Below are positions 41,301-63,420 of a stretch of 64,000 nucleotides of DNA, piece after piece. Where the stretch lies: positions 505,501 to 569,500 of the forward strand of contig CAMXCT020002669.1 in the NCBI GenBank assembly GCA_947184155.2, written 5' to 3'. The notes under the pieces were generated by a model. It made no database searches. It was not told the DNA's origin and saw only the letters and a program-made list of their open reading frames with translations. The translations under genes and the position numbers were made by a program. How positions within the stretch are numbered: position 1 is the stretch's first letter; each line of letters begins with the position of its first letter. The stretch is from Cladocopium goreaui. Its lineage: Eukaryota > Sar > Dinophyceae > Suessiales > Symbiodiniaceae.

Positions 41301-41756
41301 TCTCAACCTTCAAAGACTCATTGGATGAACGTACCTCGGTCAGGGGGAGCCCGGGGATTTTTCGGCACTCATCGCGACCACCGAGGACCCCGGCAACTTG
41401 AACCTCCCGGAACAAGCTCGCCACCCTGGGCACAGCTGGAATGGACACATCTGAGACAAAAATTCAGTGACCCAATAGCACCTGGATAAGACACAAATTC
41501 AATTTGAATACACAAAATATATCTAAATATCACCTTCATCATGTGCTGGTGAGTTCTGTCAATCGCAAATTTAGTATGAAGGAAAATTAATGGAACATCT
41601 ATGAAGAATAAGGAAAAACGAACACACTGCACATCACGCTGGTGCACGGCACCATGGCAAAGAAAAATGATCGTGAGGTTGCAAACAGTGGAAAATGATC
41701 AGATCAAAGAGGCTGCACTGCACCGACAAAAAACGCAATAAGTCAGAATGGGTGTG
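38389..41756. other. No firmly supported gene between the DUF4116-type gene and the 6.5-kb element
   Basis: A possible minus-strand exon at about 41343-41448 reads VSIPAVPRVASLFREVQVAG and ends near a GTACG donor. Another at about 39110-39150 reads MDAMEIATAEAS before GTGAGA. Neither is tied to a gene. The rest is unique AT-moderate sequence. Confidence 0.35.
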
Positions 41757-42139
41757 TGTGTGTGTGAAATCCGCTATCACTCATGCGGACCTGAGTTTCT
41801 GTTAACAAGTTGATTCAAACAATCCATCAGATGCAGGGGCGTGCAGCACCTTTGGCATACTGCACGCAACGAAGCTATTGCCATTGGTGGGAAGGGGAGA
41901 CTGATCACCTCCCTGTACCTGCAGAAGTTGGTTTTGAACTGTTGAACAAGCTGTCCATTTTCATGCGTATATGTTGCTAATTTGAGATTATCTCAGAAAT
42001 CAGAGTTTCCCACTGCTTTCCCTACTCGACTGACCAGGATTTTGGACCTAGGAACCCTCAAGGCATGAACTACTTCATCACTATAAAGTTCCTCATTCGA
42101 GTAATGTTACTCAGTAACATGCTCCCATCAGCAGTGTGT
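41757..42139 (+). repeat. Left terminal direct repeat of the 6.5-kb element
   Basis: 383 bp, starting in a (TG)n run and ending CAGCAGTGTGT. I found no mismatch to the right copy. It contains CTATAAAG near its 3' end (42081-42088), a possible promoter element of a repeat-driven transcript, although TATA boxes are not the usual dinoflagellate promoter. Confidence 0.9.
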
Positions 42140-42483
42140 AACGGGCACAGTGTCACTGACTTGTGACTGCCGTCCGCGTGTTTGGTGACACGCGTTGAAT
42201 CGGTACCGGCCTTCCGGAAGAATAGTGGGGTACTGCAATACCTCGAAATCTGACGGGTATTAATTCCCGTGTGAATTGGCTTCAGGCCGAAATACATGAA
42301 TCAAATACAATGCAAGATTTCACAAGATTTGGAATACGTCACAAGACAGCAGCAAGCCGTATGGCTGGAATTCTGAAAGACAGACACGAATTTATTACAT
42401 TCTACACGTTCGGGCAACTCAGATCTGTTCTGTCATCATTTAGTTCTTTTGTTTTTCACCTTTCCTCTGTATCTGTTTGAGCC
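42140..42483 (+). promoter_or_regulatory. Structured 5' leader of the element
   Basis: Between the left repeat and ORF1 are several hairpins: CGCGTGT/ACACGCG (42175-42181 with 42088-type loop ending 42194), CCGG/CCGG around 42205-42218, ACGGG/CCCGT (42253-42257 with 42266-42270) and GGCTTCAGGCC-like (about 42279-42290). They could be packaging, translation or priming signals. I looked for a hammerhead core (CTGATGA ... GAAA) and did not find one. No TGG-type primer site follows the repeat. Confidence 0.4.
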
Positions 42484-44196
42484 ATGTCGAAATCTGATAT
42501 TCCAGCTGCAGTACCAAAGTCGCGATGTCCACCTAGTCCTACTCCTCCACCATCCTGGATCACACCTGTAAGTCGCCAAAGTCGTCCTACAGTTCTTGAA
42601 TTTACAGGACAATGCGGACAATATCGAATTGAAGGATCCAACATTCAAGAGACACGGGACTTACTCCAGACTGTTCTTCATACGGAGTCTCAACATGTTC
42701 AACATGTTCAACACATGCAGTTTCAACAAATGTTGACTTTGTCACAAAATATGATGTTCTCCAATGCTCTTGGCATTCAACCCAGCTCATTTCGTGCACC
42801 AATTGTTGATCGTGATGATCGAATGGACGGATCGAACGTAGTTTCTGGATTGGGCTCTCATTCTGCACTGCCCTCAGACACTGTGGAACGTCAGAACCGT
42901 AGCTCTCAAGTTGCACTGCCCTTAGTCACTGATGATCGTCAAAATCAGATCACATCAAATGACCGAGTGGATCGAGTACGTCCCACTGTTACAGCTGATT
43001 TACCAAGCGATGGAACGGTCCGGGTGCCTCTGACTTCTGAATCAGATCAACGGGATCGAGTTCGGGCATCAATGTTTATAGACCAGCCGTCAGTCTCAGT
43101 TGCTCCCATTCCACGTTGGGGATTGTTCGTACATTGTTTACATGACCATCATGGACACAAGAAGACCTTCACTAGTGATCGAAGACTACCCGGACCTAGA
43201 CCAAAGGTTACGACTCGCATTGGACGGCCTCCTTTGACTGTTGAAATTATTGAATTTTTACACCCTCAGAGTGATCAGATTTCTTTTTGGACGCTACCCA
43301 CCACTGCCACATTTTGCTGTGATTGTATTACTTTAGAACAACCTGAGAAATCACCTTGGTGGTTCCTATATCAGTGCATGGGCCGCATTCGTGAAGAACT
43401 CTATCAAGATCCTTACCGTATCAAGAATGCATATGAAACTGGTGCACTCACTTTGGCAGTTGACAAATGGACGCCATCTTTGACATATTTTCAGCAACAA
43501 TACTCTTTTCGAACTATTGACTCGATTGCGCTGTTAAAACAACAACTTATGACTGACCATATGCAGATCCTCAAAGATGAGTATTCCGCCAAGTTTGAAA
43601 AATTCTCTTTAATCATCCATTCCGCACTCGAAGTATTGATCTCTACTCTCCTTCTACATTCTGAAGTTTGGGCTTTCGTGGAGTGCATCGACTTACTCTT
43701 TGATCACCAGAATCAGTCTCTTGTGGCCATTGTCGCTCGCTTGGAACCAGTCGTTTTTACACAAGAACCAGAAATTCCTGCTGCAGAATACATATGTTAC
43801 GCACACAACACGAATCCACAATCTGCTGCAGACAGTTTGTTCCATGGGTATATCAGACCATCATCCACTGACCCACAAGACGAAACATGGATCCCGGCAT
43901 TGACCTTTTTCTGTCGTGGCGTTACTGTGGCAAGACCTGTTATGACCAGATCAGTGATGCTCACAACCTTGAGAAAGGCACAGAAATATTCCAATTTTAC
44001 CACTGATCGTCCTACATGTTTGCTCGGTATGTCTAAATCAAGACAACCACATGTGACCAACGTTCTCGGCGGTGTTATTGGAGAACATGCTTGTACACAC
44101 TATTTTGACCGTGTACATGGACGTGACAAACGTTGGGGTCTTCGTTCTCATTTGAGTCCGCTTAGCCATTTAGCTTGTATCATCCCATCATCATGA
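42484..44196 (+). CDS. Element ORF1, 570 aa, unknown function
   Basis: ATG in context GCCATGT; an in-frame TGA lies just upstream. Residues 1-215 are Pro/Ser/Arg/Asp-rich and probably disordered, with a VQHVQHMQFQQ stretch (about 77-87). Residues about 216-570 look folded, with aromatic and hydrophobic segments (RWGLFVHCLHDHHGH, YICYAHNTNPQSAADSLFHG, LTFFCRGVTVARPVMTRSVM). I recognise no catalytic motif with confidence. The segment 'AHNTNPQSAADSLFHGYIRP' superficially recalls ADP-ribosyltransferase-type 'HGT/aldsIl..GL' patterns, but this is too weak to use. It is the first of four collinear ORFs and is transcribed towards the SR-rich ORF2, from which a 384-bp non-coding gap separates it. It could be a structural, capsid-like or accessory protein. 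Confidence 0.7.
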   Translation: MSKSDIPAAVPKSRCPPSPTPPPSWITPVSRQSRPTVLEFTGQCGQYRIEGSNIQETRDLLQTVLHTESQHVQHVQHMQFQQMLTLSQNMMFSNALGIQPSSFRAPIVDRDDRMDGSNVVSGLGSHSALPSDTVERQNRSSQVALPLVTDDRQNQITSNDRVDRVRPTVTADLPSDGTVRVPLTSESDQRDRVRASMFIDQPSVSVAPIPRWGLFVHCLHDHHGHKKTFTSDRRLPGPRPKVTTRIGRPPLTVEIIEFLHPQSDQISFWTLPTTATFCCDCITLEQPEKSPWWFLYQCMGRIREELYQDPYRIKNAYETGALTLAVDKWTPSLTYFQQQYSFRTIDSIALLKQQLMTDHMQILKDEYSAKFEKFSLIIHSALEVLISTLLLHSEVWAFVECIDLLFDHQNQSLVAIVARLEPVVFTQEPEIPAAEYICYAHNTNPQSAADSLFHGYIRPSSTDPQDETWIPALTFFCRGVTVARPVMTRSVMLTTLRKAQKYSNFTTDRPTCLLGMSKSRQPHVTNVLGGVIGEHACTHYFDRVHGRDKRWGLRSHLSPLSHLACIIPSS

Positions 44197-44580
44197 TCAA
44201 TGATCATGGAAGTCACACAATTTTGTTGCGCTCCATAGATCAAAAGCTGCGCTCTGTTGTATCACTTTTTGAGCGGTTTCATTTATCAAGCCATCTCTTC
44301 ATGAGTCATTTCAGATTTCGTCCAAGTCACCTTTTTGTGAGTTACAGTCACATACGTTTGATGTTTTTCCTAGTGATGATTTCGAAATCAAGAGTATTTA
44401 CATTTTGTTAAGTCTAATTCAGCTGCTGTTTTTCTTGAGTACTACAATTTGACTTGCATCAAAATTGTCTGGTTCTGTTCAATTTTTTCATTACTGTTTT
44501 CCATGATTGGTATAATTCACAGTGGATCAAACCCGTCAGTAAGTCGTTCTTCAATCCGTTTGTGATCAGTATTTGGACAG

Positions 44581-45669
44581 ATGCAGTCTCAACGCCGAGA
44601 TTCTCGATCCAGATCTCGACATCGCAGTCGTGGACATCGTCGACACGAGTCTAAGGAATACCGTGATCGAAGACGACCGCTGTCCCGGACCCAAGACCTC
44701 AGTCGTGCACGATCACCAGACTTACCTGATTCGTGGCAATCCACACGAACCCATTATGACACAAAGACGGAGTATGGATTGACTTTTCCACGACATGTTG
44801 AGTCGACCAATTTTTCACGAAAGAACAATACAGCTGGCATTCCTATTTCTGATGTTAAGCTTGTCGACATTGTGTCCAACGGTCTTGAAAATTGGGCTTT
44901 GCGCCTTGTTGCCAATGGTAGGTATGTCGCATGTGAGATGTTTCGAAATCGCCTTGAAGCCACATTTTCTACCATGCTTTTTCGTGAACTCTACCGACAA
45001 AAAGACAATGTTGATTTTGCGAAGCTCATCCAGCATTTGTCTTCAGAACCAGGTGATTCTCAAGATTGGAAATCCAAGCTTTCAGGAATTGAGGCGTTGA
45101 TTCAACAGACTGTTGATTTGTTCAAGACTTTGGCACCCAAAGATTCCAATCAATCATTGTTAGAAGAACTGGAAAGAATGAAGAAAGAGAACGCAGCTCT
45201 TCGTGCCAACCAAAGTCAAGTTCCTACTCAGGAAGGATCACAGACTCAGAACACTGAGGAACCACCAGGCGGAACACTCCCATCCATGTTTCGTCAATCA
45301 GCAATAGAGGAACTCAGACGCCAAAAAAGTCAGTCGATGCCAAGTATGCCGGGAGCCCAAGATGACCGTTCTCCACTCTCACAATATCGACGTGGACAAA
45401 ACGCACCCATCTTAGGCACACACACACCCAAACATACCATGACTGAACTCGACAAGTGGATCAAGAACAATGTTCCTAAGACGGAACAAGTCAATGTTGA
45501 TGCCATGTTGAAGACCATTACTGACGAATACAATCAGTTTCCAGCCTCTGAAAGACCAAATTTAGAATCGATTCTTTCAGATTGGGGTCTCCCCAGTACA
45601 GTACTGGCCAAAACAAAGGCGGAATACAATTTGAAGGTTTTGGCCGCCGTTCAATTCCTTCGAAACTGA
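44581..45669 (+). CDS. Element ORF2, 362 aa, SR-rich and coiled-coil Gag-like protein
   Basis: Starts MQSQRRDSRSRSRHRSRGHR and remains Arg/Ser-rich to about residue 45, a typical RNA-binding or nuclear-targeting tail. Residues about 85-185 form a conserved-looking alpha-helical region (LVDIVSNGLENWALRLV...). Residues 190-213 (LLEELERMKKENAALRAN) read as a short coiled coil with heptad Leu/Ala. The C-terminus (LDKWIKNNVPKTEQVNVDAM... to the end) looks like a helical bundle. No zinc knuckle is present. Position before the RT ORF, basic RNA-binding tail and coiled coil are what Gag or ORF1 proteins of retroelements show, so a nucleoprotein role is inferred. The frame remains open for 106 codons after the TGA (45667-45669), to a TAG at 45985-45987. 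Confidence 0.7.
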   Translation: MQSQRRDSRSRSRHRSRGHRRHESKEYRDRRRPLSRTQDLSRARSPDLPDSWQSTRTHYDTKTEYGLTFPRHVESTNFSRKNNTAGIPISDVKLVDIVSNGLENWALRLVANGRYVACEMFRNRLEATFSTMLFRELYRQKDNVDFAKLIQHLSSEPGDSQDWKSKLSGIEALIQQTVDLFKTLAPKDSNQSLLEELERMKKENAALRANQSQVPTQEGSQTQNTEEPPGGTLPSMFRQSAIEELRRQKSQSMPSMPGAQDDRSPLSQYRRGQNAPILGTHTPKHTMTELDKWIKNNVPKTEQVNVDAMLKTITDEYNQFPASERPNLESILSDWGLPSTVLAKTKAEYNLKVLAAVQFLRN

Positions 45670-45987
45670 CATTTTGGATTACAAACCAGTGAAGTAAGTC
45701 CTCCATCATCATGGGGGCAGCCATTTCGCAAGTATTCCAAACATATGCATGGTGCAGAGACAACGAAGCTTGCCTCACATTTTCAGTCGCTGTGGTTTGC
45801 TAGCATCCAATTCATGATTTACACTTTGCAATTTTCTCCAGCTTTACCATGGCATGTACAGGAACGGATCATGTGGATACTTAGTGTTTGGACCATTTTT
45901 GCTTACATCATTCGACCTTTTTCAGCCAAAAATCGACGTCTTCTGACTATTTTGCGGCAGTGCGAACTTCCAGAAATTTTGTCATAG
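45670..45987 (+). CDS. In-frame open extension after the ORF2 stop (readthrough or separate small hydrophobic ORF)
   Basis: In the ORF2 frame the sequence continues HFGLQTSEVSPPSSWGQPFR with no stop until 45985. The part from the internal ATG at 45745 (MHGAETTKLASHFQ...) has a strongly hydrophobic centre (LWFASIQFMIYTLQFSP, IMWILSVWTIFAYII). It overlaps the open RT frame by 41 bases (45947-45987). Whether it is a readthrough domain, an independent 80-aa membrane-type protein or part of an intron cannot be decided by eye. A shorter frame MGAAISQVFQTYAW (ATG 45711), with a myristoylation-like start, also lies here. Confidence 0.4.
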   Translation, partial: HFGLQTSEVSPPSSWGQPFRKYSKHMHGAETTKLASHFQSLWFASIQFMIYTLQFSPALPWHVQERIMWILSVWTIFAYIIRPFSAKNRRLLTILRQCELPEILS

Positions 45988-46036
45988 ACATGGTGGAACA
46001 GGTCGAGCATCGTGTACTGTCGTTTACATTTTCGAA

Positions 46037-46975
46037 ATGCTCAGTTTTACATTGGCTCCACTGAACAAACCATGTTTTCGAGACGAAATCAAATGCTTTT
46101 TCCAAATTGATCATGGTGCTGACCTTCTCCTCTTTCAGACTGATATTGCTGGTTTCTACAACCAAGTTGAACATGACCGCATTCTCGGATCTATTGAATT
46201 CGCCATTCATCAATATTTTTTACAACATGGACAGACCTTCGATTCTGTACTTCAAGCACACGTATATCAACATGAACGCACCCTGCGAGTTTTTAGAGGT
46301 CAATGGCGACAACACACCAAGATGTATCGTGATATTCGCTTGGGCGACATTCTACCTATTTGTAGCTTTCTGTTGAATCACAGTTTTTTCACCGTCGGAA
46401 TGTCTACATTTTTACAAAAACGTGGTGCCAGCATGGGTAGTCAATGGGCACCTATTTTCTGTGCAGCTGTCGCACTCATGCGAGAACATACTTTTCTGTC
46501 CTGTTTTCGTCAATTTACCAATAATTCCACTTTTCATCATCGTTACGTTGACAATCGAGTGATGCTACTTCCTGTGGGACACTGGAACTCAGAAATGCAG
46601 TTATTTTGGAATCTTTCATTCTATTCACCTCCCATTCTACTTGAACAAGTTGAAGGATCTGAATTGTTAGGATACAACGCTGACGTGTTACAGCGTACAA
46701 CTACATATCTTCAACCTGTGGACAAAGCGTTTCGTTCAACAAGGAGTTCAAGTACGACTAAGGCACTCACGTCCGGAGCTCTGGCCAGAATTCGTCTCAT
46801 TTTGCAGAATACATGGCCCAGTTCTCTACAAATACCTCAAATTCAAGATTTTCTGTCCATTTGGTCTCGACGACAACGTGATGTATTGTCTTCTACTTTG
46901 AGAAGTCAGATTATCAAATTGGTACGCTCACGTCATCCACAACTTGATCCTGATTCTCTTTTTCACTTTGACTAG
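46037..46975 (+). CDS. Element ORF3, 312 aa, reverse-transcriptase-like protein with YVDN motif
   Basis: Residues 35-43 (TDIAGFYNQV, Asp36) fit RT motif A. Residues 130-139 (GASMGSQWAP) fit motif B, the 'GxxMGSxxAP' pattern. HHRYVDNR (Tyr170-Val171-Asp172-Asn173) fits motif C with the second catalytic Asp replaced by Asn. The 'AALMRE' helix after motif B and the C-terminal Arg-rich, helical 100 residues suit an RT palm and thumb. The open frame extends upstream of the ATG to 45947 (NFQKFCHRHGGTGRAS...), so the true N-terminus could be longer by recoding or splicing. The length is short compared with LTR or LINE RTs and there is no RNase H, integrase or GIY-YIG domain. The MGSxxAP and RYVDx pattern is closest to Penelope-like or related RTs in my memory; the exact clade is unresolved. 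Confidence 0.75.
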   Translation: MLSFTLAPLNKPCFRDEIKCFFQIDHGADLLLFQTDIAGFYNQVEHDRILGSIEFAIHQYFLQHGQTFDSVLQAHVYQHERTLRVFRGQWRQHTKMYRDIRLGDILPICSFLLNHSFFTVGMSTFLQKRGASMGSQWAPIFCAAVALMREHTFLSCFRQFTNNSTFHHRYVDNRVMLLPVGHWNSEMQLFWNLSFYSPPILLEQVEGSELLGYNADVLQRTTTYLQPVDKAFRSTRSSSTTKALTSGALARIRLILQNTWPSSLQIPQIQDFLSIWSRRQRDVLSSTLRSQIIKLVRSRHPQLDPDSLFHFD

Positions 46976-47314
46976 ATACCATGACAGGAAACGCAGACAA
47001 AACAGTTGCTGGATTTCGCATTGTCGTGTTTTGTCGTCATTCGCCATCACTTTCGTGAAGTCATTTGATGTTGGACATTTTCATCAATGGGCATTCTTTG
47101 ACGTTTTTCATCTGAAGTTCGATAACGTCACACTGTTTTCTTCTTTTTCATTTACCTTTTCAGTTATGTTCATGTTGTGTTTTTCTCAACTCAGTTGTTT
47201 TCATCATACTTTTGCCGATTGCGAATCTTGACTTTGACAGTTCGAATCACACGTTTTTGAATTTTGAAGAGTATATTTAAGCTCAAACTCAAACCAATCT
47301 ATCTCCTTCTTACG
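46976..47314 (+). other. Non-coding gap between RT ORF and ORF4
   Basis: 340 bp of T-rich sequence with short frames only; no hairpin or motif stands out. It could hold the 5' leader of ORF4. Confidence 0.4.
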
Positions 47315-47734
47315 ATGCCTTCGTTGCGTGAACTTAGCAATACTTTGGAACAGTGGTCCCTTCGGAAACGTCTCACCGATCGCTCCAGATCGCCAGTTCG
47401 GGAACCCTATATTTGTGATGGTCAGACACGTTCGAGTATCAAGAACGCTTCAGTTGAGTCTCGTTTCGAAAATGAAAGTGAACGATCCAGATCGCAAGTC
47501 CGGGAGCCCTATAGTTATGATGGTCAGACACGCTCGAGTATCAAGAACGTTTTGATCGAGCCACTTTCTGAAAATGCAAGTTCTACATCACATCGACGTC
47601 AAGATCGGTCTTTCACTGCAGCTGATGGTTCATCTGTTCAGTCCTCGTTCCCTTCAACCGATCGTTTTCAGAAGAGTCGCTCTCCAACGGGAACGCAGTC
47701 CGGACCCTTATTCTGTCCCAAGGAGACCATTTGA
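47315..47734 (+). CDS. Element ORF4, 139 aa, SR-rich protein with internal duplication
   Basis: ATG at 47315 (MPSLRELSNTLEQWSLRKRL). Residues 23-54 and 57-88 are two copies of a ~34-residue unit, RSRSxVREPYxxDGQTRSSI followed by KN.....E. The nucleotide copies are about 102 bp long (near 47381-47482 and 47483-47584). The remainder is Ser/Arg/Thr-rich. Arg-Ser dipeptides suggest an RNA-binding or splicing-factor-like, nuclear protein, echoing the SR tail of ORF2. The frame is open upstream of the ATG to 47264 without another ATG. Confidence 0.55.
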   Translation: MPSLRELSNTLEQWSLRKRLTDRSRSPVREPYICDGQTRSSIKNASVESRFENESERSRSQVREPYSYDGQTRSSIKNVLIEPLSENASSTSHRRQDRSFTAADGSSVQSSFPSTDRFQKSRSPTGTQSGPLFCPKETI

Positions 47735-47855
47735 TTTACAGTGAACCTTTCCCATATGTTGTACAAGAATTTCTAGGACATGTATATATTGCAAACTGAT
47801 ACTGCGATGAAAAACAGCGTTCACCAGCAGCTGCCTCCCCTGCCGGGGGGGCCAT

Positions 47856-48238
47856 TGTGTGTGTGAAATCCGCTATCACTCATGCGGACCTGAGTTTCTG
47901 TTAACAAGTTGATTCAAACAATCCATCAGATGCAGGGGCGTGCAGCACCTTTGGCATACTGCACGCAACGAAGCTATTGCCATTGGTGGGAAGGGGAGAC
48001 TGATCACCTCCCTGTACCTGCAGAAGTTGGTTTTGAACTGTTGAACAAGCTGTCCATTTTCATGCGTATATGTTGCTAATTTGAGATTATCTCAGAAATC
48101 AGAGTTTCCCACTGCTTTCCCTACTCGACTGACCAGGATTTTGGACCTAGGAACCCTCAAGGCATGAACTACTTCATCACTATAAAGTTCCTCATTCGAG
48201 TAATGTTACTCAGTAACATGCTCCCATCAGCAGTGTGT
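47856..48238 (+). repeat. Right terminal direct repeat of the 6.5-kb element
   Basis: Identical by eye to 41757-42139. A G-rich run (GCCGGGGGGGCC) lies just before it, at about 47842-47852, which could act as a polypurine-tract-like primer site but contains pyrimidines. A frame starting at its internal ATG (48164) runs out into flanking DNA and is not a gene. Confidence 0.9.
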
Positions 48239-48365: not shown

Positions 48366-48439
48366 CACTTCCGCCTTGCCAACTCTTCGCCAAGCTCTTC
48401 GCCAACTTCCGCACGCAGTGGCCACTGCTGGACCTCAAC

Positions 48440-48615
48440 TGCAAGGGTCTGAGCGCACTGGGCACCGCTGGACCTCAACCTGGGACCTTCCGAGCTCAGT
48501 GAGCACGGCTGGACCTCAACCTGGGACCGTCCGAGCTCAGTGAGCACCGCTGGACTGCTGGACCTCAACCTGGGAGCCTCTGGGACCCTCCGAGCTCAGT
48601 GAGCACCGCTGGCCC
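48440..48615. repeat. Tandem repeat, CTGGACCTCAACCTGGGACC-type unit
   Basis: Four imperfect units of roughly 43-60 bp sharing CTGGACCTCAACCTGGGACC and TCCGAGCTCAGTGAGCACCG. Confidence 0.75.
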
Positions 48616-48624
48616 TCAACGGCC

Positions 48625-49295
48625 AGATAGAATGCCAAAAGATATGCCAGATAGAACGCCAGATAGAATGTCAGAAAGAATGCCAGAAGATATGCCAGAT
48701 AAAGTGCCGGAATGTTTGCCAGATAGAATGCCAGAAGATATGCCAGATAGAATGTCAGATAGAATGCCAGGAGATATGCCAGATAAAATGCCATGAGATA
48801 TGCCAGACAAAGTGACAGAATGTTTGCCAGATAGAACGCCAGAAGATTTGCCAGATAGAATGCCAGATAGAATGTCAGAAGATATGCCAGAAGATATGCC
48901 AGATAGAGTGCCAGAACATATGCCAGAAGATATGCCAGGTAGAATGCCAGAAATATGCCAGATAGAATGCCAGAAGATATGCCAATAAAATGCCAGAAGA
49001 TATGCCAGATAGAATGCCAGAATATGCAGATAGAATGCCAGAAGGTATGCCAGATAAAGTGCCAGAATGTTTGCCAGAACATATGCCAGAAGATTTGCCA
49101 GATAGAATGCCAGATAGAATGTCAGAAGATATGCCAGAAGATATGCCAGATAGTGTGCCAGAAGATATGCCAGAACATATTGCAGAAGATATGCCAGGTA
49201 GAATGCCAGAAGATATGCCAGATAGAATGCCAGAAGATATGCCAGATAAAATGCCAGAAGATATGTCAGATAGAATGCCAGAAGATTTGCCAGTA
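48625..49295. repeat. 12/24-bp minisatellite (GATATGCCAGAA / AGAATGCCAGAT), about 56 units
   Basis: Units of ATGCCAGATAGA and ATGCCAGAAGAT alternate for about 670 bp. Because the unit is a multiple of 3, long frames are open on both strands: plus M-P-D-R-M-P-E-D periodic, minus L-A-Y-L-L-A-F-Y-L and G-I-S-S-G-I-L-S periodic (minus frame of 227 codons at 48616-49299). I call these repeat artefacts rather than genes, although the minus frame mimics a membrane protein. Confidence 0.85.
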
Positions 49296-49466
49296 ACAAA
49301 ACGTATAGATGTCATGGTGGGGATAACTCGAAGTAAAGTAATTAACTTTTATTTGCATCTAGATATACATAATATACGCACAAGGTCTTTTGTCCTTCAA
49401 CCCTTATAGTAACGAACACACTGCCAAAGGAACTACTCCGTGTCTGGATTTTCCAGGCATGTCTTG

Positions 49467-61679: not shown

Positions 61680-62771
61680 ACCTGACCACAACTGCTGGAT
61701 GTAGTGTGGTGTAGTTGTAGCTGTAGTGTAGTGTAGTGGAGTTGTAGCTGTGGTGTAATGTAATTAGTGTAGTGTGGCTGCAGTTGCAGCTGTGGTGTGG
61801 CGTAATTAGTGTAGTGTAGTGTGGGGTACTGTAATGCTGTGTACTGTAGTGTGGTATAGCGCCCTGTAGCCTAGCGTAGTGTAGTGTAGAGTATTGTAGT
61901 TGTAGTTGCAGTTATAGTTATATAGTTGTAGTTGTAGTGTAATTAGCGTAGTGTAATGCAGTGGTAGTTGTAGTTGTAGTTGCAAATGTAGTTGTAGCTG
62001 TAGCGTTATGTAATGTAATTAGTGTAGTGTAATGTTGTGCAATGTAGTGTAGTTGAGTTGCATTTGTAGTTGTAGTCGTAGTGTACTGCAGTGTCATTAG
62101 CGTAGTGTAGTTTAATGTAATGTAGTTGTAGTAGTAGTAGTAGTAGTACTAGTAGTACTAGTAGTACTAGTAGTACTAGTAGTACTAGTACTACTAGTAC
62201 TACTAGTACTACTAGTACTATAGTAGTCGTCGTCGTCGTCGTCGTCGTGGTAGTGGTAGTGGTAGTTATAGTGGTAGTGGTAGTGGTAGTGGTAGTGGTA
62301 GTGGTAGTGGTAGTAGTAGTAGTAGTAGTAGTAGTTTCAGCAGTAGCAGTAGCAGTAGCAGTAGCAGTAGCAGTAGTAGTAGCAGTAGTAGTAGTAGTAG
62401 TAGGAGTAGTAGTAGTAGTAGTAGTAGCAGTAGTAGTAGTAGTAGTAGTAGGAGTAGTAGTAGTAGCAGCAGCAGTAGTAGCAGCAGTAGTAGTTGCAGT
62501 TGTAGTCGTTAGTAGTTTGTGGATAGTGGTTAGTGGTTAGTCGTTAGTAGTTTGCAGTTAGTAGTTAGTAATTAGAAGTGAGTGGTGAATAGTGAGTAGT
62601 GAGAAGTGAGTAGTTAGTAGCAGTAGTAGCAGTAGTAGCAGTAGTAGCAGTAGTAGCAGTAGTAGTAGTAACAGTAGTAGCAGTAGTAGCAGCAGTAGTG
62701 GTTGTTGTAGTAGTTGTTGTAGCTGTAGTTGTAGTTGTAGTTGTAGGTGTTGCTGTTGCTGTTGCTCTTGT

Positions 62772-62809
<38 letters not shown>

Positions 62810-63420
62810 TTGCTGTTGTTGCTGTTGTTGTTGTTGTTCCATATGGTGTTCTTTATGTTGTTCTTTATGTTGTTCTATTTGTTGTTCTATGTGTTGTTCT
62901 ATATGTCGTTCTATATGTTGTTCTATTTGTTGTTCTATATGTTGTTCTATATGTTGTTCTATGTGTTGTTCTTTATGTTGTTCTATATGTTGTTCTACAT
63001 GTTGTTGTATGTTGTTGTATATGTAGTTGTACAGGTAGTTGTATATGTAGTTGTATATCTAGTTGTATACCTAGTCTAGTTGTATATGTAGTTGTATATA
63101 TAGCTGTACCTGTAGTTGTATATGTAGTTGTAGTTGTAGTTCTAGTAGTAGTAGTAGTAGTTGTTGTTGTTGTTGTAGTGTAATTAGTGTAATTAGTGTA
63201 ATTAGTGTAATTAGTGTAATTAGTGTAATTAGTGTAGTTAGTGTAATTAGTGTAATTAGTGTAATTAGTGTAATTGTAATTAGTGTAATTAGTGTAATGT
63301 AGTGTAATTAGATGTAGCTAGTGTAGTGTAGTGCAGTGCAGTGTAGTGATGTGTAGTGTAGTGTAGTGCAATTCGTGTAGTGTAATTCGTGTAGTGTAAT
63401 GTAGCGTAGTATATTTGCAT
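61680..63420. repeat. 1.7-kb compound microsatellite/minisatellite region
   Basis: In order: TGTAGTGTAGT-type (about 61690-62110), TAG/TAC palindromic blocks with ACTAGT (62125-62220), CGT then GTGGTA and TAG/CAG runs (62225-62510), CAGTAG and TTGTAG (62600-62750), TTGCTG (62750-62835), TTGTTCTATATG 12-mers (62842-63015), TTGTATATG-type (63020-63160), TGTAATTAG 9-mers (63176-63305) and GTAGTGTA again (63310-63410). It yields long Val, Gln or Leu frames on both strands that are artefacts. Confidence 0.85.

Follow-up and report, generated by a model that had tools for sequence, protein, structure and literature searches.

The window, a stretch of 64,000 nucleotides from the genome of the dinoflagellate Cladocopium goreaui, contains a copy of a retroelement bounded by two direct repeats, with the following features:

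41757..42139, + strand: 5' terminal repeat (LTR or pseudo-LTR), 383 bp, beginning TGTGTGTGTG and ending CAGTGTGT
41833..41922, + strand: pseudoknot-type RNA motif in the 5' repeat (pattern match)
42484..44196, + strand: ORF1, 570 aa, conserved between families at 25–27% identity
44581..45669, + strand: ORF2, 362 aa, with an SR-rich start, a coiled-coil-like middle (by eye) and a Gag-like position
45667..45669, + strand: in-frame TGA (next base C) separating ORF2 from ORF3, a candidate readthrough stop
45670..46975, + strand: ORF3 remnant, prematurely stopped and missing 1491 bp internally (intact form about 931 codons: GIY-YIG, CxC, RT)
46037..46975, + strand: 312-aa RT-like frame, the RT part of the ORF3 remnant
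46083..46087, + strand: ORF3 deletion junction, 5-nt microhomology
47315..47734, + strand: ORF4, 139 aa from ATG, SR-rich, containing a 102-bp tandem duplication
47834..47851, + strand: hairpin CCTCCCC/GGGGGGG directly 5' of the 3' repeat (read by eye)
47856..48238, + strand: 3' terminal repeat, 383 bp, same sequence as the 5' repeat
47932..48021, + strand: the same RNA motif in the 3' repeat (pattern match)

The window copy and its relatives

The two terminal repeats are in direct orientation and identical at 383 of 383 positions, as an earlier note on this DNA had stated. The repeat sequence has 269 candidate places in the genome, and at all 40 of these that were scored the identity was 99–100%. 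Both repeats are clean in 17 of the 20 regions fetched from the C. goreaui genome; in these 17 copies they are regular and LTR-like, and no partial tandems or inverted repeats of them were seen in the fetched regions. The description in the note of a recent, repeat-bounded retroelement agrees with the identity of the repeats and with these 17 further two-repeat copies. The spacing of the repeats is 7526–7591 bp in the 17 copies as compared with 6099 bp in the window copy, which is without 1491 bp relative to all of them. The window copy is a deletion derivative of a longer element. Hairpins of differing sequence were seen by eye at the equivalent position before the 3' repeat in loci L030, L032 and L033.

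The 312-aa RT-like frame is the 3' remnant of an ORF3 of about 931 codons, which in the window copy also contains a premature stop; in 15 of the 17 copies ORF3 is open for at least 923 codons, the longest having 931. The earlier note had counted four ORFs as the cargo, and ORF1, ORF2, the RT-like frame and the SR-rich ORF4 do lie between the repeats, but the third is this remnant rather than a complete frame. Because the deletion and the premature stop hit ORF3, the missing endonuclease, which the note had read as a property of the element, is a trait of the damaged window copy and not of the family; a GIY-YIG signature stands close to the N terminus of the intact ORF3. A new class is not supported by the four-ORF cargo: ORF3 is truncated in this copy, and no ORF4 was recognised at the loci of other families.

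GIY-YIG signature and reverse transcriptase region of ORF3

ORF3 families related at 42–51% identity were found, and we count the comparison of ORF3 between loci L030 and L031 (dN 0.036, dS 0.26) as evidence for selection. The GIY-YIG signature, (V/I)Y-x9-FYIG(S/A)T-x6-R followed by (M/V)E...Q...NWP, is complete in all six aligned rows that reach the N terminus, which come from four lineages, and a CxC motif with invariant C399 and C401 lies between the endonuclease and RT parts in all seven ORF3 rows. In a predicted model of ORF3, residues 87–172 adopt the order beta-beta-alpha-alpha-beta-alpha, with block pLDDT values of 59–82 up to residue 170; the RT part of the model was unusable (mean pLDDT 44). 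Pfam matched the GIY-YIG family to one of six fragments (model positions 3–74 of 78, E 0.042, short of the cut-off) and to none of the full-length ORF3 rows, and a Pfam search with the full-length ORF3 of the window family gave no match at all. RVT_1 was listed weakly for all six RT regions, with E-values of 0.092 for the first and 2.2e-4 for the best, and the sole score shown was 12.9 bits as against a Pfam cut-off of 29.6. RT motif C reads YVDN in all seven aligned rows, Asn replacing the second acidic residue. Neither integrase, tyrosine recombinase, RNase H nor protease was matched by Pfam in ORF1–4, seven ORF3 rows and four ORF1 rows. PDB sequence searches gave no convincing match and NCBIfam and PHROGs no useful one, and no relatives were confirmed in viral and prokaryotic contigs. 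A GIY-YIG endonuclease probably makes the cut at the target site of the element.

ORF1, ORF2 and ORF4

Searches of Pfam and PDB sequences with ORF1 gave no convincing match. The pattern H..T...G.IRPSS...FYCRG can be seen in it by eye; a reading of ORF1 as an ADP-ribosyltransferase or a Tpt1-like RNA 2'-phosphotransferase is not claimed here, because the sequence searches were negative. ORF2 ends in a TGA that is in frame with ORF3, and this stop is present in 21 of 21 loci of the window family as well as in five of six loci from three other lineages; in L031 a CGA stands in its place, which results in a single ORF2-ORF3 frame of 1321 codons. A conserved ORF1 together with a Gag-like ORF2 one TGA away from ORF3 is unexpected for a Penelope-like element. 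The frame of ORF4 is open in 17 of 17 copies of the window family; inspection by eye 3' of ORF3 at four loci that belong to other families, of which two are partly masked there, revealed no counterpart, and ORF4 as a core part of the element is unsupported beyond the window family.

A covarying RNA motif in the repeats

The motif found in each repeat is about 90 nt long and consists of an outer stem GCAGG/CCTGC, a 7-bp stem X, a segment b in the X-loop that is complementary to a downstream segment b', an invariant CAACGAAG and a hairpin Y. Across sequence types, the 7 nt GCAGGGG are followed by an X stem of 7–8 bp with a loop of 11–14 nt and then by CAACGAAG. Both matches to the motif pattern in the window lie inside the repeats (none in 100 shuffles), and the genome contains 3861 matches as compared with none for the reversed pattern. 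Motif places are mostly paired on the same strand, about 1.1 kb or 5–17 kb apart, and for 79 of the first 97 another place lies on the same strand at no more than 20 kb, where about 0.033 would be expected. Stretches of about 12.5 kb bounded by the motif also occur in the genome, as do short elements that contain it in their repeats, and the two short-element loci that were read contain no ORF longer than 188 aa. In viral contigs, at least 120 stretches match a 16-base half-pattern of the motif in an uncontrolled count; we took them as chance for a pattern of this length and did not use them.

The two variable helices of the motif covary, across 17 and 19 sequence types. Stem X is 99.2% paired and has 50 doubly changed cells, a count that none of 500 shuffles reached (shuffled mean 12), while two of the five measures are less decisive (reached by 15 and 37 of 500 shuffles). 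In 18 of the 19 types b pairs best with its own b', a result that none of 20000 permutations reached; within the window family this pairing is weak, being reached by 1383 of 5000 shuffles and not significant alone. L031, which has an insert and in which no stem was found, was left out of the b/b' shuffle scoring. Rfam 15 gave no family at the gathering threshold in the window or in six relatives, and no hammerhead at E ≤10 in positions 41700–42500 or in L159, the one short-element locus scanned. Hammerhead, HDV, twister and pistol were rejected as the identity of the motif on a comparison of topologies, Rfam having no match above threshold. Pistol, with its hairpin-loop pseudoknot, is the nearest in topology, but it is without an outer stem, and the topology is not known to fit any ribozyme. 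The RNA motif, which the earlier note had not mentioned, is the most novel part of the element, and we propose that it is the cis-acting RNA of the element, that is, either a new self-cleaving ribozyme or a pseudoknot recognised by the RT.

Insertion sites

The left flank ends in TG in 18 of 18 copies and the right flank starts with G in 18 of 18 and with GT in 16 of 18, counts in which two flank pairs are not independent and some TG runs are short. Target-site duplications are indistinguishable from the surrounding TG repeats.

Discussion

Penelope-like elements with an N-terminal endonuclease have a CxC motif between endonuclease and RT, pseudo-LTRs and a bias for insertion into microsatellites, and in Penelope partial tandems or inverted repeats occur among the terminal repeats. 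Such N-terminal-endonuclease elements, Chlamys and Naiad, were reportedly described by Craig et al. in 2021. The window family resembles them in its N-terminal GIY-YIG, CxC linker, C-terminal RT and terminal direct repeats, and in its preference for microsatellites, here TG repeats; no hammerhead was found in it either. It differs in having two additional conserved ORFs with an in-frame TGA between ORF2 and ORF3, a YVDN motif C, the covarying RNA motif and regular LTR-like ends. A canonical Penelope-like element, with a single ORF, a C-terminal endonuclease and a hammerhead in its terminal repeats, is unlike the window family, which has ORF1–ORF3, an N-terminal endonuclease signature and, in the window and six relatives, no Rfam match at the gathering threshold. 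The Penelope-like affinity suggested in the earlier note fits the intact copies, with their N-terminal GIY-YIG signature, CxC, RT and TG at the ends. We consider it likely that the copy in the window belongs to a dinoflagellate family of Penelope-like retroelements, with a life cycle of the kind set out below, and that it was inserted recently and has lost part of its interior. Chlamys elements occur in a brown alga according to excerpts of PMC12477816, and a limited search of literature excerpts found no report of Chlamys/Naiad-type elements from dinoflagellates. If our reading holds, endonuclease-bearing Penelope-like elements extend to dinoflagellates, with a polyprotein-like organisation that is undescribed in the literature excerpts consulted.

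What we observed are the parts of the element and how they are conserved, the TG at its ends and the covarying helices; every step of this cycle is inferred. RNA would be made either over the full length of the element, with repeat sequence on each side, or as a circle of one repeat and the interior, and ORF1, ORF2 and, via occasional readthrough of the UGA, an ORF2-ORF3 fusion would be translated. In a second step the pseudoknot-type motif in the terminal repeat would serve as the site at which the ORF3 product binds the RNA. The motif may in addition be self-cutting, like the hammerheads in other Penelope-like elements and retrozymes. The endonuclease would then nick a TG/CA repeat, and the CA 3' end would pair with GUGUGU at the end of the repeat and prime reverse transcription, resulting in a copy of repeat, interior and repeat. 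Lastly, short elements that contain the motif in their repeats may be mobilised in trans.

At close to even chances, the motif may be a non-catalytic structure for recognition by the RT protein of the element or for packaging by ORF2, by analogy with the pseudoknotted RNA bound by R2. The full X and full b/b' helices, which are probably mutually exclusive, would suit a switch in such a structure, and a motif serving as a signal for trans-mobilisation would be expected in the repeats of short elements. Binding of a pseudoknotted element by the R2 protein is described in excerpts of PMC12222951. The invariant unpaired stretches shared across types, however, exceed the usual need of a protein site. 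Such stretches outside the helices, the rigid layout and the covarying helices speak for a self-cleaving ribozyme of unknown class, a reading that we find credible at somewhat less than even chances; it would stand at the hammerhead position of other Penelope-like elements and retrozymes and free unit-length RNA from longer transcripts, which would then be circularised or used directly. The presence of the motif in both repeats and in short elements, and the lack of an Rfam hammerhead at the gathering threshold, agree with it; its topology, which is not known from any ribozyme and has no Rfam match above threshold, does not, and in excerpts of PMC11167929 one animal element inserted in vitro without needing hammerhead cleavage. 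A bolder version, offered tentatively and with more doubt than confidence, is that the motif is a new self-cleaving ribozyme class, or else a pseudoknot like that of telomerase RNA, to be read by an RT related to telomerase. It would define a dinoflagellate retroelement superfamily whose motif copies run into the thousands and which comprises long autonomous families as well as short riders of the retrozyme kind; in this superfamily, a UG-repeat segment upstream of the pseudoknot and the UGA-readthrough GIY-YIG/RT polyprotein would jointly target microsatellites. Thousands of natural variants of this covariation-supported motif exist, the RNA family library has no match to it, and it would bear on the choice of template RNA by telomerase-related RTs.

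It is unlikely that the family is instead a divergent, ordinary LTR retrotransposon, tRNA-primed and with an integrase or tyrosine recombinase, the integrase being too diverged to see. It would be suited by the pair of clean terminal repeats, present in 17 of the 20 regions that were fetched, and by a Gag-like ORF2 ahead of a Pol-like ORF3, with an intervening stop as in some LTR elements, but the Pfam searches of ORF1–4 and of the ORF3 and ORF1 rows gave no integrase, RNase H or protease, and the GIY-YIG signature and the TG at the insertion ends argue against it. Copia, Gypsy and DIRS elements have an integrase or tyrosine recombinase together with RNase H, to which the window family has no Pfam match, and the view in the note that the content is not that of Copia, Gypsy, DIRS or LINE elements is upheld. 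For a local duplication of the repeats without connection to the ORFs, which the note had named as a refuting condition, no support was found, and it is refuted by the 17 other places at which the repeats pair around the same cargo.

The window family can be compared with three further systems, as described in excerpts of the papers cited. The Candida LTR element Tca2 (PMC2194720) also has a UGA separating Gag-like and Pol-like frames, but ORF3 of the window family has a GIY-YIG signature and no recognisable integrase. Retrozymes (PMC4918200, PMC7229834) are likewise short and non-autonomous and contain an RNA motif in their repeats; the short elements found here differ from them in that their motif is not a hammerhead by Rfam (L159 scanned). 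R2 non-LTR elements (PMC12222951) share the single-protein cut-and-prime logic proposed here, and their protein recognises a pseudoknotted RNA; they differ from the window family in the type of endonuclease, the terminal repeats and the target.

Results

The element at 41757-48238 of the window is laid out as follows.

41757-42139, forward strand of the window: first terminal repeat, 383 bp
42484-44196: ORF1, 570 aa
Then, in order: ORF2, 362 aa; a reverse transcriptase (RT)-like frame, 312 aa; small ORF4
47856-48238: second terminal repeat, identical to the first across 383 bp

As the earlier note had claimed, the two repeats align without a difference and all four frames lie between them. The copy in the window is damaged: compared with 17 other two-repeat copies, 1491 bp are missing inside ORF3, with a 5-nt microhomology at the junction, and the repeat-to-repeat distance is 6099 bp instead of 7526-7591 bp; a premature stop lies upstream of the deletion. 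Directly behind the element stand 41-bp repeats, followed by about 56 tandem units of 12 bp (24 bp) (48399-49341), in which repetitive frames are open on both strands, and at 61700-63325 there are about 1.6 kb of simple repeats of TGTAG/GTA type with strong GC skew. By eye, a short hairpin abuts the 3' repeat at 47834-47851 and, with a different sequence, takes the same place in the relatives L030, L032 and L033 (four lineages).

In the genome searched (1.17 Gb, 6202 contigs) the dinoflagellate spliced-leader 21-mer has 172 matches and its reversed control none, which identifies the host as a dinoflagellate. The 383-bp repeat has 269 candidate places, and the 40 scored are all 99-100% identical. 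Two repeats are present in 17 of 20 fetched regions and a single repeat in 3. Among the 17, ORF1 is open in 16, ORF2 in 13, ORF3 (at least 923 codons) in 15 and ORF4 in all 17, with ORF1-3 open together in 10. Since the repeats within a copy are 0-3 substitutions apart (gaps not counted), the family is young. Of the copy pairs L009/L011 and L017/L025, one has 500 bp of its 5' flank in common at 100% identity and the other 500 bp of its 3' flank at 99.8%, with the opposite flank differing within each; therefore the 17 copies are not all certainly independent insertions, and the shared single flanks would reflect either copies that recombined with each other or joins made in the assembly.

The left flank ends in TG in 18/18 copies, and the right flank begins with G in 18/18 and with GT in 16/18. 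Because the repeat has TGTGTGTGTG at its own start and GTGTGT at its end, target duplications cannot be delimited. These flanks and repeat ends would suit a mechanism in which the nicked CA strand primes on GUGUGU of the element RNA. In two copies (L014, L019) the 3' flank, by eye, passes into sequence that resembles the beginning of the short elements at L158 and L159, so that one element may sit nested at the TG end of another.

The earlier note had the element lacking an endonuclease, a claim that the intact copies of ORF3 contradict, as judged from sequence. Families related to the window's ORF3 at 42-51% identity exist in the same genome, and six such loci were fetched, representing three lineages (L029/L033, L030/L031 and L032/L034). 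In all six aligned rows that reach it, spanning four lineages with the window's included, the ORF3 N-terminus keeps (V/I)Y-x9-FYIG(S/A)T-x6-R, then (M/V)E...Q...NWP, a GIY-YIG signature with Tyr, Tyr-Ile-Gly, Arg, Glu and Asn in this order. The Pfam GIY-YIG model is matched by one of six N-terminal fragments, over nearly its whole length and below the cut-off (E 0.042), and by 0/7 full-length rows; intact ORF3 of the window's family has no Pfam match. An AlphaFold model of ORF3 is poor overall (mean pLDDT 44); its residues 87-172 form beta-beta-alpha-alpha-beta-alpha (with a block pLDDT of 59-82 as far as residue 170), the order of elements in GIY-YIG domains. Downstream follow a CxC motif (7/7 rows) and then the RT, for which Pfam lists RVT_1 in 6/6 RT regions (first E 0.092, 12.9 bits with a cut-off of 29.6; best E 2.2e-4) and in 3/7 full-length rows (best E 0.0021). 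RT motif C is YVDN instead of YxDD, invariant in 7/7 rows. Between L030 and L031 dN is 0.036 and dS 0.26, and therefore the ORF3 protein is under selection; pairs further apart are saturated.

ORF2 and ORF3 resemble a Gag and a Pol frame. In 21/21 loci of the window's family they share one frame, interrupted by a lone TGA with C as the next base; in the other lineages TGA stands at the border in five of six loci (next base C in four), and the sixth, L031, has CGA there, making a single frame of 1321 codons. In L030, 88 codons separate the ORF2 stop from the first Met, a stretch 91% identical to L031 (pS 0.143, pN 0.040). Readthrough of the TGA would be the simplest reading.

Alignment of the terminal repeats across lineages contains one conserved island, an RNA motif that runs from GCAGGGG through stem X (7-8 bp), loop b, stem X', CAACGAAG, b' (the complement of loop b) and an optional hairpin Y to GUACCUGC. 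It occurs exactly twice in the window, once in each repeat (0 in 100 shuffles), and its pattern has 3861 matches genome-wide, a few of them nested (3 among the 100 listed), against 0 for the reversed pattern; a looser pattern of the 3' half has 762 against 16 for its control. In 17 sequence types 99.2% of stem X cells are paired, compared with 24-41% in slid controls, and double changes occur at all 7 pairs. The 50 doubly changed cells (shuffled mean 12) were reached by 0/500 shuffles, and two weaker measures by 15/500 and 37/500. For b/b', 19 types have 19 distinct b sequences, the own b' is the best partner in 18, and the summed score was reached by 0/20000 permutations. In a shuffle test covering six families, with the seventh locus L031 unscored, at most 3/5000 shuffles reached the observed score in five; in the window's family, where the pairing consists of two short helices flanking a TT/TT loop, it is not significant (1383/5000). 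Of four types folded, two have X in their lowest-energy nested structure and two have b/b', and by helix geometry the full helices are probably mutually exclusive; therefore a switch or partial pseudoknot is likely. Against Rfam 15, the motif of the window, its relatives and L159 has no match above threshold; at chance level, one match (E 7.2) overlaps the window motif on the opposite strand and, in L159, one (E 0.17) overlaps the motif and another touches its edge.

Spacing was analysed for the first 100 listed motif places, a non-random set from low-numbered contigs, or 97 after dropping three nested duplicates. A same-strand neighbour lies within 20 kb of 79/97, against an expectation of about 0.033 per site. 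The 43 spacings comprise 19 of 0.9-1.5 kb, 19 of 5-20 kb, 3 of 1.5-5 kb and 2 below 0.9 kb. Of the 12/19 short spacings with sequence at both ends, 10 join one type; the two on contigs C30 and C47 join different types and are therefore not single elements. In the short class, as read at L158 and L159, the direct repeats measure about 290 bp, no ORF exceeds 188 aa and, by eye, the ends carry CA/TG runs. A further locus, L160, is a 9.3-kb stretch bounded by identical 252-bp repeats carrying the motif, its interior holding degraded pieces that by eye resemble ORF1, ORF2 and the YIGST stretch. Motif pairs thus bound long and short elements, and the motif marks the terminal repeats of a large superfamily. 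Six spacings of 12.5-12.6 kb (G000 contigs C47, C57, C89, C95, C98 and C100) may represent an additional class of larger elements bounded by the motif; on C47 this pair is enclosed by a more widely spaced pair of a different type, which looks like nesting.

Discussion

N-terminal-endonuclease Penelope-like elements, reportedly described by Craig and colleagues in 2021, have the same anatomy as this element. The suggestion of a Penelope-like lineage stands as regards anatomy; the canonical plan has a single ORF (PMC3846280), from which this element departs by its additional ones. Because of these extra ORFs, and because placement is by anatomy rather than by an RT tree, we call it Penelope-like and do not assert membership. 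A 2025 article (PMC12477816) gives such elements as previously unreported in telonemids, stramenopiles, alveolates and rhizarians, and among the open-licence papers listed in our searches there was neither a dinoflagellate report of them nor a description of the RNA motif. The presence of the motif in the repeats of long and short members is like that of hammerheads, which likewise occur in Penelope-like elements and retrozymes.

ORF1 of the other families is 25-27% identical to the window's, with a C-terminus rich in invariant residues; in the window this C-terminus bears an H..T...G.IRPSS...FYCRG pattern that, by eye, is reminiscent of ADP-ribosyltransferases.
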